DNA from: Ricordea florida
Lineage: Eukaryota > Cnidaria > Anthozoa > Corallimorpharia > Ricordeidae
Direction of reading: 5' to 3'
DNA: 64,000 bases
Assembly: GCA_949710005.1 (NCBI GenBank)
Contig: OX453282.1
Coordinates: forward strand, 12,150,236-12,214,235
In this document: positions 1,888-6,819 of the stretch, piece after piece
Layout: the number at the start of each line of letters is the position of its first letter
How positions within the stretch are numbered: position 1 is the stretch's first letter
Program-made: the position numbers and the translations under genes
The notes under the pieces: model-generated
Told to the model about the DNA's origin: nothing
Seen by the model: only the letters and a program-made list of their open reading frames with translations
Databases searched by the model: none

Positions 1888-1889
1888 AT
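1888..1889. other. Left target-site duplication (AT)
   Basis: The intact monomer reads GGCAATTGTATG at this point. On the left the window reads GGCAAT then element AGGCCC; on the right it reads GGGCCT then ATTGTATG. Only AT as the duplicated dinucleotide restores the uninterrupted monomer sequence and its 599-bp length. A TA duplication would leave two extra bases. Confidence 0.93.
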
Positions 1890-2180
1890 AGGCCCTTTGC
1901 AGGATCTAGTCACGTGCCTCGATACCACTTAGCAACGCCATGCTGGGACGCAAGCGTTCCAGCGCCATTTGTAAAACAAAGGCTGAACACTGAGGTTGTT
2001 GCGTGCGATCAAGCGATACAAGTACCTTTCGAAAAGATTCCCATTACTACGATAGCGAATAATTTTTCTCTTACACAAGTTGGCTTTGACCTCTTGTGCT
2101 TTTTAACTGGATTCACCGGCAAATAAGCGACAATTTTTCTTCGATTCCTGCAGCAAGTCGGCGAGTGAACACGTGTCGAC
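1890..2180 (+). promoter_or_regulatory. Presumed promoter and 5' leader of the transposase gene, inside the TIR
   Basis: This is the 291 bp between the element end and the first start codon. It is richer in G+C and CpG than the satellite. No convincing TATA box is visible at a sensible distance, so a TATA-less promoter is likely. The context of the ATG at 2181 (GACATGG, purine at -3 and G at +4) is a strong Kozak match. An open frame at 1914-2126 falls here and is mirrored in the other TIR. I treat it as incidental, though it could act as an upstream ORF. Promoter function is inferred from position only. Confidence 0.5.
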
Positions 2181-2342
2181 ATGGCGAACTCTGAAGGTAG
2201 GGAATAACCTATAACTTTTTGTTATGAATTTTTACTTTCCTCTTTTCGCCACTTAACTTTCTTACTGTCTTTGGAGGCCTTCCAGAAAAGGTTATTGTAG
2301 CGTCGTTGAAAGTATTTGGTGGCCGCATCTGGTGGCAAAAAT
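1890..2342 (+). repeat. Left terminal inverted repeat (453 bp)
   Basis: It pairs with 6365-6817 in inverted orientation over 453 bp without indels and with about 16 mismatches counted by eye (about 96.5% identity). Identity stops at GGCAAAAAT. The outer ~290 bp would hold transposase binding sites and the promoter. The inner part holds the transposase gene start codon at 2181, a 16-nt coding exon and the splice donor GTAGGG at 2197, plus the first ~146 nt of intron 1. Most mismatches cluster toward the inner end, within intron 1. Confidence 0.95.
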
Positions 2343-4464
2343 TGATTACAGTAACAGTGATTTTTGTTTCATACTTGACACTTTCAAGTAAAACAACACA
2401 TCCCTCGATAAGGATTTCTTTGTGAAGATTCGAAAATAATAACTCTTCCTTGCACATGTACAGCTGGTGAAGGAACATCGAATATTCTGTTGGATCCGTG
2501 TGATGGCTCTCAGTCTCCAGTTCCCAAGAAGAAATCGAAAGGGGGAAGTTATCATTGTTGTGTGCCAAATTGTACTGGAGACTCACGGTATGACAGCTCT
2601 TTATCGTTTCATCGAATACCGAGCAGACCCAGTGATGACACTTTAAGAAAACTGTGGCTGGTCAAAATTAGGAGAGACATTGGACCATTTTTCAAGGTAC
2701 AACTATAACCAATATATATGTTTACCTCATGTTGCTGTGGTTCTTGTTTATTGCTGACATGGCCTTCTATTTCAATGTGAATGAGCTTTTCATCCGAATC
2801 CAACCGTTTACATGTTTGCTGGCTGTCTTTGTACATTTTTTTCGCGTTAGCAGTAAAGTCATTATACATTATTAAAGCGCATTGCAATACATGGCCCAAA
2901 GTATATGCTCCAACTTTTTTTTCTTACTTTATTTCCATATTTCTGGGTTACAGATTACTAACAAGACCAGAGTGTGCTCTAAACACTTCCTTCCTGAAGA
3001 CTATAAGCCATCTGACAATTCTGGACGCCGCCTATTAAAGGAAGGCACTGTTCCAACAATTTTTGACTGGACACTACCACCAAAGTCAAGAAGAAAACTT
3101 GTTCGTGTTGTTGACAGGTATGTTGCTTACTTACCTCTCATATACCCTGGGCATCATAAGACATTTCATAACAATGAATTTCAATGTAAGATTACATTCT
3201 CAATTCAACACATGACAGTCACCTCTCTCTAAAAAAACATAATCCTTTTCTTTTTGGTCCTTGTACATGTAGTGGCACTCAAACCGATGAGAGTGAGACT
3301 GATGAAGGAGATGGAATTCCTGGTGAGTGCAAAACAGCTATTATAGAACCAGAACTGTCAGAACTTGAGGCAACCAGATCTCAGCTCTTGGTTGTTCAAG
3401 CAGAACTGGAGGAACTGAGAAGGATATCTACCACTGCTGCCAGGGAAGCTGATTCAGCCATTCTTCAGGCTCAGCAAGAACTCAAGAGACAAAAGGAGCT
3501 TGCTGCACAGGAGCTTGCACTGAGCAGGTTTGGACTAGAGAGGTTCTCCACCAATGATGATCTCATTAAGTTTTATACAGGATTTTGTTCCTACAAACAC
3601 CTAACTATGTTTTACAATTTTGCCAAGCCTACTGCTGAAAAAATGACATACTGTTATGCTTCTGGTGTCTTAGATAGTCGCCCTAATTCCCGGGTAATGT
3701 TATTGATAGATGAATTATTTATGTTCTTGGTTAGAGTGAAATTAGGCCTCTTTGAGCAAGATCTTGCACAACGTTTCCATATCCATATTTCATCAGTGAG
3801 CAGGAAAATTACTACTTGGGCCAATTATATGTATTTTCTTTTGGGTTCTCAGTCTATTTGGCCTTCTAGGGATGACGTAAATGCAAACATGCCTGAGGAG
3901 TTCAAGGAACTCTATCCAACAACAAGAGTTATTCTAGACTGCACTGAGATTTTTGTGGAAACACCATCATCTCTTCTCTTACAGTCTCAGCTGTACTCGT
4001 CTTATAAAAGCAAAACCACCCTTAAAGGTTTAATAGGAATTGCACCACATGGTGCAATTACATTCATTTCTTCTTTATTTACAGGTGCCATATCAGATAA
4101 AGAAATAACTAGATGTTCTGGTATAATAGATCTATTAGAACCTAATGACTCAGTTATGGCAGACAAGGGTTTTGACATTGAAGGGATGTTAAGGGAAAGG
4201 GGGGTGGGACTTAATCTCCCTCCTTTTTTGCAAAGCAGGGACCAGTTTACGGCTAAACAAGTGCATGAAACTAAAACTATTGCCAAGCTTAGGATCCATG
4301 TAGAAAGAGCAATTAGAAGGATAAAAGAGTTCCACATTTTTGATTCACCAGTGCCCCTGTCGATGGTTGGCACTGTCAACCAAATATACACTGTTGTCTG
4401 TTTACTAACAAATTTTCAGGGACCCCTGATTCTGAAGGGTGGCGGTTCTATTGACAATGATTAG
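2181..4464 (+). CDS. THAP-domain DDE transposase (ISL2EU-like), four exons
   Basis: Proposed exons are 2181-2196, 2464-2696, 2954-3117 and 3273-4464 (TAG stop). All introns are GT-AG and the phases fit (1, 0, 2), giving 535 codons and 534 residues. The protein would bind the element ends and catalyse cut-and-paste transposition in the nucleus. Residues ~35-120 form a C2CH THAP zinc finger: C37, C42, W70, C91 and H94, with a TVPTIF box at 115-120, split by intron 2. Residues ~160-225 are rich in E, L, Q and A and look like a coiled coil, probably for oligomerisation. Residues ~297-325 resemble a helix-turn-helix. The catalytic domain shows D360 (in ILDCTE), D435 (in MADKGFD) and E482 (in HVERAIRRIK), a complete DDE triad in DDE_Tnp_4 style. 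No stop or frameshift is seen. An in-frame TTG at 2490 or 3388 is not the start; the ATG at 2181 is chosen because it splices in phase. Splice sites are predicted, not proven. Confidence 0.88.
2197..2463 (+). other. Intron 1 of the transposase gene
   Basis: The donor GTAGGG follows the 16-nt first coding exon. The acceptor TGTACAG ends at 2463. The phase-1 donor joins two bases of the next exon to give an alanine codon and then the long open frame running into the THAP domain. The first part of the intron lies in the TIR and the rest is unique sequence. No ATG lies in frame between the upstream stop at 2409 and the THAP domain, which supports an upstream start exon. Confidence 0.75.
2697..2953 (+). 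other. Intron 2 of the transposase gene, splitting the THAP domain
   Basis: The donor is AAG/GTACAA after 2696. The acceptor GGTTACAG ends at 2953 after a T-rich stretch. The phase-0 join places the two halves of the THAP finger in order: the first Cys pair and Trp before it, and Cys-x2-His with the TVPTIF box after it. The spacing is normal for the family. Confidence 0.85.
3118..3272 (+). other. Intron 3 of the transposase gene
   Basis: The donor is CAG/GTATGT after 3117 and the acceptor ATGTAG ends at 3272, preceded by a pyrimidine-rich run (TTTTCTTTTTGGTCC). The phase-2 join forms a serine codon and enters the frame leading to the coiled coil and catalytic domain. The intron contains in-frame stops, so it must be removed for a full-length product. 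Confidence 0.83.
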
Positions 4465-4483
4465 TTCTAAAAAACAAGTAATA

Positions 4484-4493
4484 TTTATTTATT
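4484..4493 (-). terminator. Two overlapping poly(A) signals (AATAAATAAA) for the nuclease gene
   Basis: On the minus strand this reads AATAAATAAA, two overlapping AATAAA hexamers, about 255 nt beyond the nuclease stop codon. Use of this site would make the nuclease 3' UTR span most of the intergenic region and overlap the transposase 3' UTR. Confidence 0.5.
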
Positions 4494-4568
4494 AGTCTAC
4501 AGCAATGGCTTACCACGATTATGTAAGAGGATCATAATATCGAAGAAGTGTTCACAGATGATATGTAT

Positions 4569-4574
4569 AATAAA
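4569..4574 (+). terminator. Poly(A) signal AATAAA for the transposase gene
   Basis: A canonical AATAAA lies 105 nt after the transposase stop codon on the plus strand. It is the first such hexamer downstream of the stop. Confidence 0.6.
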
Positions 4575-4858
4575 ACATTATAATTATCTTACACAAAACA
4601 GTGATTGAACCTACTAGTTACATGTGGGCAACTTAAAACATAACAACTCTCACTGGTGGGAAGAGGGGAGTAGAACAAAATGATATTAAGTATAATTTTC
4701 TCCTTTACTTACTTAAAAAATAATTACTAAGATTACTGTTGACAATTAGTTTAAGAAATAATTGAAGAAAAATGTGTCCACCTTATCCTTACTAGCTTGA
4801 AAGAAGTCTTTATCAAAGTAAATTCTTTGGCAAAAAAAATCTGTATCAGTCATGTAGG

Positions 4859-4863
4859 AAAAA
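4859..4863 (-). other. Apparent 1-nt deletion (frameshift 2) near the nuclease C-terminus
   Basis: After WCDIF the frame reads PT and stops (TGA at 4852-4850). In a neighbouring frame the sequence continues with FFCQRIYFDKDFF and runs to TAA at 4746, as expected for the C-terminal helices of this family. The switch falls at a five-base T run on the minus strand and one missing T explains it. Real decay and an assembly or base-calling error are both possible. Confidence 0.7.
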
Positions 4864-5337
4864 TATCACACCAATCAAGACCAGTCAGACCAAGCTGACA
4901 TTGAACCTGTGAGTAGTATTCATGATTTTCCTTCAATTTCCTCTCCTGGGTAAAAGGATCCACTCCTAAATATTTTACATTATTGAAACTGGTCTCCCCC
5001 TCTTTGACAACCTTAACTTCTAACAAACCGAATGGGTTACGGCCTTGGTTTGCTAAAGTTATATCATAAACCTTTCGGTCTGGACTACAACCAAGCCAAG
5101 GACATTTTGGATTGATGACCAGTCCTGATGGATAGAGTTTAACCATCCCCCCCTTTGCTACATTAGCATAGACCATTGAAGCTCTGGCCTCCAGCTGAAT
5201 ACCTCTCTTCATGGCAGGAGTGGTGACGTGACGGCTGGGATTAAGCTGTGCAACAAGACTCTCAAAGTTCGAAACCCTCTTTGCACACAAGCCAAATTTG
5301 CTTGCTGTGATACGTTTCTTGCGAAGAAGGTGCCACA

Positions 5338-5343
5338 AATTCT
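5338..5343 (-). other. Apparent 1-nt deletion (frameshift 1) at the start of the nuclease domain
   Basis: The upstream frame reads VAIDLQSKTVTQR and then drifts into non-family sequence. The YqaJ core, beginning LWHLLRKKRITASKFG, is in the -1 frame from the same point. One missing A in the AGAATTTG stretch accounts for it. No plausible GT-AG intron bridges the junction. Confidence 0.75.
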
Positions 5344-6080
5344 CTGCGTGACAGTTTTACTTTGCAGATCAATGGCAACTTCCCTTGTAACAAATAGAGA
5401 GTCCAATGATGCTTGCTTTTCAGGGCTCAAACAAATTGAAACCCTATTTTCAAACCGGTCACCAGCATCAGGCAGTGGTAACTCAGGGTATGCCTCGCAG
5501 AATAAGTCATTAATTACGTATTCTTCTGATAATTTCTGCTGGTATGAGAGGACACTGCCTCTAACAGCATGTCCAAATTTCGTTACAACAGAAGGTAATC
5601 CAGGGAGCTCTTGTACAGATGGAACAATAGAGGCCATCAATGGCTTGGGTGAGAGGTTGTTAAAATGACTCTTGCTAAGTATGCCATACACATTGGATGG
5701 GGAATATAGAGTGCTTTTAATGTACCTAGAGTAGTCAGCTCCCATCTGTGGTTTCTTGACCAACAAATCCTGGATTTCTTTTTGCTGAATAGTCTTACCC
5801 CTGGGAACACTCCACCGCTGTGGCAAACTGGTGCATGTTAAATCATCTGGCAAAGCCTTGAGACCATACAATTTACAGTGGGCCAGGTAGAAGAGTAAGG
5901 CTATTATATGATGGCAGTAGCCACTCATACCAGCAACACAGGAACACTTGGCATTGGTTATTTTGGGGTCCTCGTTTGCCTGTAGTGGCACAGACACTTC
6001 CAAAGAGTGTTGGGCTTCACTTTTCTTCATTGATCTGAAGCACTTGCCTTTGACTTTAGCTTTATCCGGAAAATATGTAA

Positions 6081-6153
6081 CTAAAAGGAGCAGCATACAA
6101 CAAAATCAGCGAATACTCGGTATCTGGGAAATACACCACTTGCGTAAGCTTAC
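6081..6153 (-). other. Intron 2 of the nuclease gene (73 nt)
   Basis: On the minus strand the donor is AAAG/GTAAGC and the acceptor TCCTTTTAG. The phase-1 join gives GYLHDIKG then V followed by TYFPDKAKV, leading straight into the SWIM region. At 73 nt it is short but within the animal range. Reading through would shift into an unrelated frame. Confidence 0.8.
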
Positions 6154-6324
6154 CTTTGATATCATGGAGATAACCTGGTTCTGCAAAGAATTTGTAGGCC
6201 TTTGCAGTATTTTCACAGCCAGAGGACTTTTTTGCATATTCCTCAACCTCACTGAAAGATAGACTGGGGAATAAACTCAGATCCTGGGTCGTTGCTTCTC
6301 TTGAGTCTGACGCGGAGTTACCAT

Positions 6325-6510
6325 CTGTACGATAAATATGGATTAAAGTCTCACAGAACATGTCATTTTTGCCACCAGATGCGGCCACCAAATACTTTCA
6401 ACGACGCTAAAATAACATTTTCTAGAAGGCCTCAAAAGACACTAAGAAAGTTAAGTGGCGAAAAGAGGAGAGTAAGAATGCATAACAAAAAGTTATAGGT
6501 TATTCCCTAC
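6325..6510 (-). other. Intron 1 of the nuclease gene (186 nt)
   Basis: It begins with donor GTAGGG, identical to that of the transposase gene because both lie in the TIR, and ends with acceptor CGTACAG in unique sequence. The phase-1 join completes an aspartate codon and enters the open frame DGNSASDSREATTQ. Confidence 0.75.
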
Positions 6511-6817
6511 CTCCAGAGTTCGCCATGTCGCTACGTGTTCACTCGCCGACTTGCTGCAGGAATCGAAGAAAAATTGTCGCTTATTTGCCGGTGAATCCAG
6601 TTAAAAAGCACAAGAGGTCAAAGCCAACTTGTGTAAGAGAAAAATTATCCGCTATCGTAGTAACGGGAATCTTTTCGAAAGGTACTTGTCTCGCTTGATC
6701 GCACGCAACAACCTCAGTGTTCAGCCTTTGTTTTACAAATGGCGCTGGAACGCTTGCGTCCCAGCATGGCGTTGCTAAGTGGTATCCAGGCAAGTGACTA
6801 GATCCTGCAAAGGGCCT
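6365..6817 (-). repeat. Right terminal inverted repeat (453 bp)
   Basis: It is the inverted partner of 1890-2342 and the same length. It carries the nuclease gene start codon at 6526, coding exon 1 (6526-6511) and its splice donor. Exon 1 differs from the left copy by one base, so the N-termini read MANSG here and MANSE on the left. The outer ~290 bp (6527-6817) is the presumed promoter and transposase-binding region for this end. Confidence 0.95.
6527..6817 (-). promoter_or_regulatory. Presumed promoter and 5' leader of the nuclease gene, inside the TIR
   Basis: This is the mirror copy of 1890-2180 and differs from it at only about seven positions. The ATG context (GACATGG) is the same. Because both genes start from near-identical TIR sequence, they are expected to be expressed at the same time and respond to the same factors, including possible repression by transposase binding. 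Function is inferred from symmetry. Confidence 0.5.
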
Positions 6818-6819
6818 AT
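6818..6819. other. Right target-site duplication (AT)
   Basis: This is the second copy of the AT dinucleotide, directly followed by TGTATGAAG, the continuation of the satellite monomer interrupted at 1889. Confidence 0.93.

Follow-up and report, generated by a model that had tools for sequence, protein, structure and literature searches.

Terminal inverted repeats as likely shared starts of both genes in an ISL2EU transposon of Ricordea florida

The Element and Its Two Genes

The window analyzed here, a stretch of 64,000 nucleotides from the corallimorpharian Ricordea florida (contig OX453282.1; G000:C11:12150236-12214235), contains a DNA transposon of 4928 bp (1890-6817) that encodes a transposase and, convergent with it, a YqaJ nuclease between terminal inverted repeats (TIRs) of 452 nt (table 1). 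Based on the protein domains of both genes and the A|AT|T target rule, the element belongs to the ISL2EU group. We consider it likely that its TIRs double as near-identical 5' ends of the two genes, with both proteins starting from a shared exon, and we compared the element with its relatives in the same 538 Mb genome.

Because the element is inserted within a 599-bp satellite, empty satellite units reveal both the target and the exact bounds. An empty unit reads ..GGCAATTGTATG.. and the filled site ..GGCAAT[AGGCCC...GGGCCT]ATTGTATG.., giving an AT target duplication within A|AT|T. The inverted arms, which include a bit of flank, extend over 457 nt and are 96% complementary; left and right TIR proper differ at 16 positions. 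At the domain level the left gene matches THAP (1e-17), HTH_Tnp_4 (6.5e-11) and DDE_Tnp_4 (1.6e-43) in Pfam, and the right gene matches YqaJ (8.8e-15).

The left start exon reads ATGGCGAACTCTGAAG and the right start exon, on the reverse strand, ATGGCGAACTCTGGAG, each followed immediately by GTAGGG. A sequence-only reading of this stretch had proposed that both repeats carry the same ATG, 16-nt exon and donor, that the exon is joined in phase 1 to acceptors at 2463 (completing an alanine codon) and 6325 (completing an aspartate codon), and that ahead of its first domain neither gene offers an in-frame ATG that could be used. The window letters bear out the exon and donor in both repeats, the length of which had been put at 453 nt and is 452 nt, and agree with both predicted splices. 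The third proposal holds for the transposase, the open frame of which has no methionine ahead of THAP, and fails for the nuclease, which has an in-frame ATG at 6361(-) (MFCETLIHIYRTDGN...). The transposase acceptor ranks third by score among open-frame AGs, all three of which are in phase 1. The two overlapping open reading frames (ORFs) into which the nuclease of the window copy is split occupy 5209-6105 and 4850-5356.

Table 1. Features of the transposon in the window
Feature	Position	Strand	Remarks
Target site duplication AT, left	1888..1889	.	in A|AT|T; empty-unit comparison
Left TIR, 452 nt	1890..2341	+	~80-nt conserved terminal block, putative promoter, start exon, donor, beginning of intron 1
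Transposase start exon, 16 nt	2181..2196	+	MANSE plus phase 1; donor GTAGGG 2197-2202; exon conserved across families
Transposase exon 2 (predicted)	2464..2696	+	acceptor AG 2462-2463; THAP start
Transposase exon 3 (predicted)	2954..3117	+	remainder of THAP domain; exon ends judged by eye
Transposase exon 4 (predicted)	3273..4464	+	HTH_Tnp_4 and DDE_Tnp_4, stop included
Remainder of YqaJ nuclease gene	4850..6105	-	frame-disrupted in window copy; two overlapping ORFs
Nuclease exon 2 (predicted)	6154..6324	-	acceptor AG 6326-6325, best-scoring open-frame acceptor; 3' end judged by eye
Alternative in-frame nuclease ATG	6359..6361	-	within proposed intron
Right TIR, 452 nt	6366..6817	-	96% identity to left TIR
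Nuclease start exon, 16 nt	6511..6526	-	MANSG plus phase 1; donor 6510-6505; exon conserved across families
Target site duplication AT, right	6818..6819	.	empty-unit comparison

Conservation of the Start Exon and Splice Phase

Besides the family of the window copy (family A), nuclease and transposase searches recovered many diverged families from the same genome; ten families, A included, were read at both ends (table 2). Homologous start codons, located either inside the TIR or at its inner edge, lead into both genes in seven of the ten (A, B, B2, C, C7, E, and H), into one gene in family D and into neither gene in families F and G. In family H, the left and right starts (MTDER/MVDER) agree at 14 of their first 16 nt. 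Five further elements lie outside this count: C9 (right end only, unscored for acceptors; its left end was not found), C15 (right end only, the left being degraded), C5_26 (neither end readable), and C3_21 and C10_21 (left ends only, of B2 type). Both exons are present in a third B2 copy (C14, 9.7 Mb), which is counted within B2.

Table 2. Gene starts in the ten families read at both ends
Family	Identity to window nuclease (or transposase where stated)	Start	Remarks
A		MANSE/MANSG, 16 nt	
B	74%	MASNG/MASNE, both 16 nt	L039, L044, L045
B2	73-75%	MAESVALSD and MAESVTTTGPE, 28 and 34 nt, both phase 1	TIR ends at ATG
C	68%	MATSE at both ends, 16 nt	
C7	68%	MATSQ at both ends, 16 nt	
D	65%	MAAAWEEE at both ends, 26 nt, phase 2	right gene fits
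E	51-52%	MAAYHCCVP and MADNTPLMP, no intron	TIR ends at ATGGCGG
H	50% (transposase)	MTDER/MVDER, no intron	ATG ~25 nt inside 59-nt TIR
F	44%	ATGs unlike each other	ATGs within short diverged TIR
G	51% (transposase)	both genes start elsewhere	TIR ATG opens 7-codon ORF

The start exon stands out from its surroundings in comparisons between ends. In family B, exon plus donor are identical at 21 of 22 positions between a left end (L039) and a right end (L045) taken from two different copies, as compared with 95% identity over the terminal 80 columns and 55.1% over the remainder (binomial 3.8e-5 for exon plus donor against the remainder). Across six comparisons (B left/right, A/B left, A/B right, A/C, A/C7, and C/C7 left), the exons invariably align ATG to ATG, with 68-95% identity versus 35-55% in the remainder, and in five of them no 22-nt stretch lying away from the start exon and beyond the terminal block scores as high as exon plus donor. 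These comparisons already weaken the idea that compactness alone accounts for the arrangement, that is, that the genes simply begin near the ends and long TIRs arose by chance copying that included the starts, with no constraint. Such an origin, which we regard as quite improbable, would suit TIR inner limits that vary from ~60 to >600 nt and family A copies that are too young for constraint to show, but in B and H the start blocks are still alike where the inner neighboring sequence has diverged, and in B2 the first codons are alike beyond the end of the TIR.

At 15 ends, open-frame acceptors were picked solely on their score, and their phase was compared with that of exon 1. The best-scoring open-frame acceptor is in phase with exon 1 at 12 of these ends (left ends of A, B, B2a, B2b, C, and C7; right ends of A, B, B2a, C, C15, and D), for which the chance probability is ~3e-4, with the proviso that ends within a family are not independent. 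Together, these comparisons support the view that start exon and donor form a module conserved at the element ends of diverged families, with a splice phase suited to either gene. The sequence-only reading, which had seen a portable cassette in the TIR and had suggested comparing related elements, is partly supported by them, with families D, F, and G departing from it.

Copies within family A are of a different kind. At least 36 nuclease matches share 93-100% identity, and 26 of the 36 listed lie in an open frame of 455-456 aa, one of them with a stop inside the match. We compared eight left ends (from 40 matches) and 30 right-side loci (from 36 rows, and including the window copy itself as L011). 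The exact exon and donor of the window copy are present in all eight left ends and in 29 of the 30 right-side loci, and were not found in the remaining one (L012). Since these copies are nearly identical, they indicate recent spread rather than constraint, and the within-family comparison is uninformative as a constraint test.

The surroundings of the window copy are also repetitive, the window (1-64000) being a long array of the 599-bp satellite units. Three family A elements, two of which precede the window, lie in this array at spacings of 7925 and 8524 bp. Each spacing equals the element plus AT (4930) and five or six satellite units, and a single insertion was therefore probably multiplied along with the satellite.

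Ends Overwritten in Both Directions

In family C, the left TIR extends past the start exon into the intron, acceptor, and first codons of the nuclease gene, and this fossil nuclease acceptor within the transposase intron runs into a stop. The right TIR of family C7 holds the transposase acceptor and first codons within the nuclease intron, where they would likewise lead to a stop if used. As C and C7 carry the acceptor of the other gene in opposite directions, the ends have been overwritten both ways. The duplicated TIR start that the sequence-only reading envisaged therefore stands as a common start exon, though with more than a single duplication behind it, the comparison supporting homogenization of the ends in both directions. 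At L043 (1-425) and L053, copied acceptors of the other gene lie in intron 1, where they are the best-scoring ones, and their use would yield products of 12-15 residues. In a family E element (L042), the 5' region of the nuclease gene recurs as additional inverted copies at 3216-3465 and 5070-5345.

In the transposase tree, families D, A, B, and C group together (99/98), to the exclusion of E, F, G, and H, and in the nuclease tree the remaining twelve rows are separated from E and F (99/97); both trees are midpoint-rooted and several of their inner branches are open. Shared starts occur in E and H but not in F and G, suggesting that this state has probably changed more than once. Transposase scans of viral contigs (three pattern matches) and genome contigs (33) confirmed no relatives beyond this genome.

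Coding Exon or Untranslated Leader

A number of observations weigh against a start exon that is shared and translated throughout. Families F and G have no common start codon at their two ends, and in both of the D left-end copies (three were fetched) a stop lies between the TIR exon and the MSKFHCCVP start of the transposase gene itself. Further in-frame ATGs are present in the nuclease frames of A, B2, and C and in the transposase frames of C and D. In the comparison of A right with B right, three other stretches score equal to the exon. The best acceptor fails to match the phase of exon 1 at B2b right, D left, and C7 right; for A left, B2b left, and C left the top acceptor differs from the predicted one but has the same phase, and the predicted acceptor of C7 right is outside the four best-scoring. 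The fossil is the best-scoring acceptor in C left and the best open-frame acceptor in C7 right. Mis-splicing to it must therefore be reckoned with, which speaks against orderly expression in both families. A spliced retrocopy of the left junction was not found in a search with up to 3 mismatches.

Some of these observations would be expected if the TIR exon were mostly an untranslated leader or an upstream ORF and the proteins started at internal ATGs, with only promoter and donor held in common. The stop in the D transposase, the 7-codon ORF of family G, both genes of which use other ATGs, and the additional ATGs in the A, B2, and C nucleases and the C transposase all point this way. However, no other in-frame ATG precedes THAP in the transposase frames of A, B, B2, and C7 or the nuclease in B, C7, C9, and D, the phase match at most of the scored ends favors a coding exon, and the TIR-margin ATG of E and H opens directly into both reading frames, with no intron between. 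On balance we find a leader rather unlikely and prefer a shared coding start.

Motifs in the Terminal Inverted Repeats

The terminal block (1890-1969 and 6738-6817) is built around CACGTG, GATACC, and TTAGCAACGCC, motifs that we take to be E-box-like and X-box-like, and has a similar form in families A, B, B2, C, and C7. In family D, GTTGCC-ATC-AGCAAC immediately precedes the left ATG.

YY1-like sites (AANATGGCG, with at most one mismatch) number 23 in 14 ends versus 2.7 in shuffles, and 16 versus 2.5 outside the ATG region, none of 300 shuffles reaching 23 or 16; the motif was picked after the sequences had been viewed, and left and right ends are not independent. Eleven of the 14 ends hold such motifs apart from the ATG; the B2 end scanned has no site and C7 only the one at the ATG. 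The YY1 motif reported from the TIRs of ProtoRAG, GCCATCTTG (PMC7481187), is itself found at both ends of E and in F left, with close forms in A, B, and D.

This enrichment raises the possibility, in our judgment an unlikely one, that the block around ATGGCG has been retained as a YY1-like transcription signal, or as one resembling the translation initiator of short 5' untranslated regions (TISU), and that its coding sense is a by-product. The starts of A, C, C7, and E fit the YY1-like motif at the threshold used, and TISU unites YY1 binding and a start codon. Apart from the post hoc choice of motif and the paired ends, this explanation has to contend with the start codons of B, B2, and D, which miss the motif, and with the conservation of donor and frame as well: the two B2 exons differ by 6 nt and yet keep their phase. 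TISU as the whole explanation was rejected because only the E starts come close to its consensus. The TISU string, SAASATGGCGGC, has 0 occurrences in the paper checked.

A Model for Exchangeable Ends

Under the shared coding start that we favor, each TIR would comprise an outer block of ~80 nt, probably the transposase binding site, followed by an inward promoter, the start codon, a short coding exon, and the donor. The promoter role is suggested by the motifs and by analogy with MuDR and ProtoRAG. Inward promoters in the TIRs would give rise to two converging transcripts with a common leader, start codon, and donor, and separate acceptors would turn these into two proteins. On the left the start exon would be spliced to the THAP exon and on the right to the nuclease exon; in the 16-nt families, both predicted splices follow the first base of a codon. 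Because one exon in one phase suits both genes, either end could be replaced by a copy of the other with neither gene broken. Through copying in the course of gap repair or gene conversion, the two ends would then stay alike in promoter, start codon, and binding site.

A broader proposition, for and against which we see even chances, is that the element ends are exchangeable start cassettes (promoter, ATG, exon, and fixed-phase donor) for two unrelated genes, copied in either direction, that homogenization and phase co-evolved, and that the arrangement was gained or lost more than once in ISL2EU. A shared start of this kind would explain how both transposon genes are co-regulated while the ends stay matched, the end required for cutting being also the start of both proteins. 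Growth and homogenization of TIRs would become testable, because the direction of each copying event can be read from the splice acceptors carried along. The arrangement would also hold a warning for annotation, as gene models built from internal ATGs would lose the N-termini of such proteins.

Comparison with Known Systems

Foldback/Galileo-type elements have long TIRs that change in length and exchange between ends. These TIRs are not known to have a link with gene starts held in common. Among the titles and abstract openings listed, the scope of which did not extend to Repbase reports, none reports a coding start exon and donor that both genes share and that is swapped between ends; the literature covered also included PMC9179366, PMC12730594, and PMC2518114.

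Within the PHIS superfamily, the ISL2EU group is found in animals (Han et al. 2015, PMC4482050). The element resembles the group in its THAP+HTH+DDE transposase, its YqaJ second protein, its AT duplication in A|AT|T, and its length, which is near the reported average of ~4.84 kb. It differs in the length of its TIRs, for which a range of 6-259 bp is reported. TIRs of the group usually begin with GG; in this element AGGCCC follows the AT. Because the range is given among common characteristics and other features tested are present, we treat the 452-nt TIR as an extension of the described range. The words intron, promoter, and start codon have 0 occurrences in the main text of PMC4482050.

MuDR of maize has two convergent genes with promoters inside TIRs of ~215 bp, which also contain a transposase binding site (PMC3440606, PMC3310237). 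The element shares with it the two convergent genes and, by analogy, a putative promoter within the TIRs. MuDR differs in belonging to another superfamily and in having start sites both in the TIR and just internal to it, and the sections of these papers available to us describe no shared coding start exon.

ProtoRAG of the lancelet is a RAG-type element with 5-bp duplications and differs in these respects, and the available sections of its description contain 0 occurrences of start codon and no shared start exon (PMC7481187). Like the element described here, it is an animal DNA transposon with two tail-to-tail genes and a YY1 motif in its TIRs, both of which activate reporters (PMC7481187). 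TIR promoters for two convergent genes are thus already known from MuDR and ProtoRAG.

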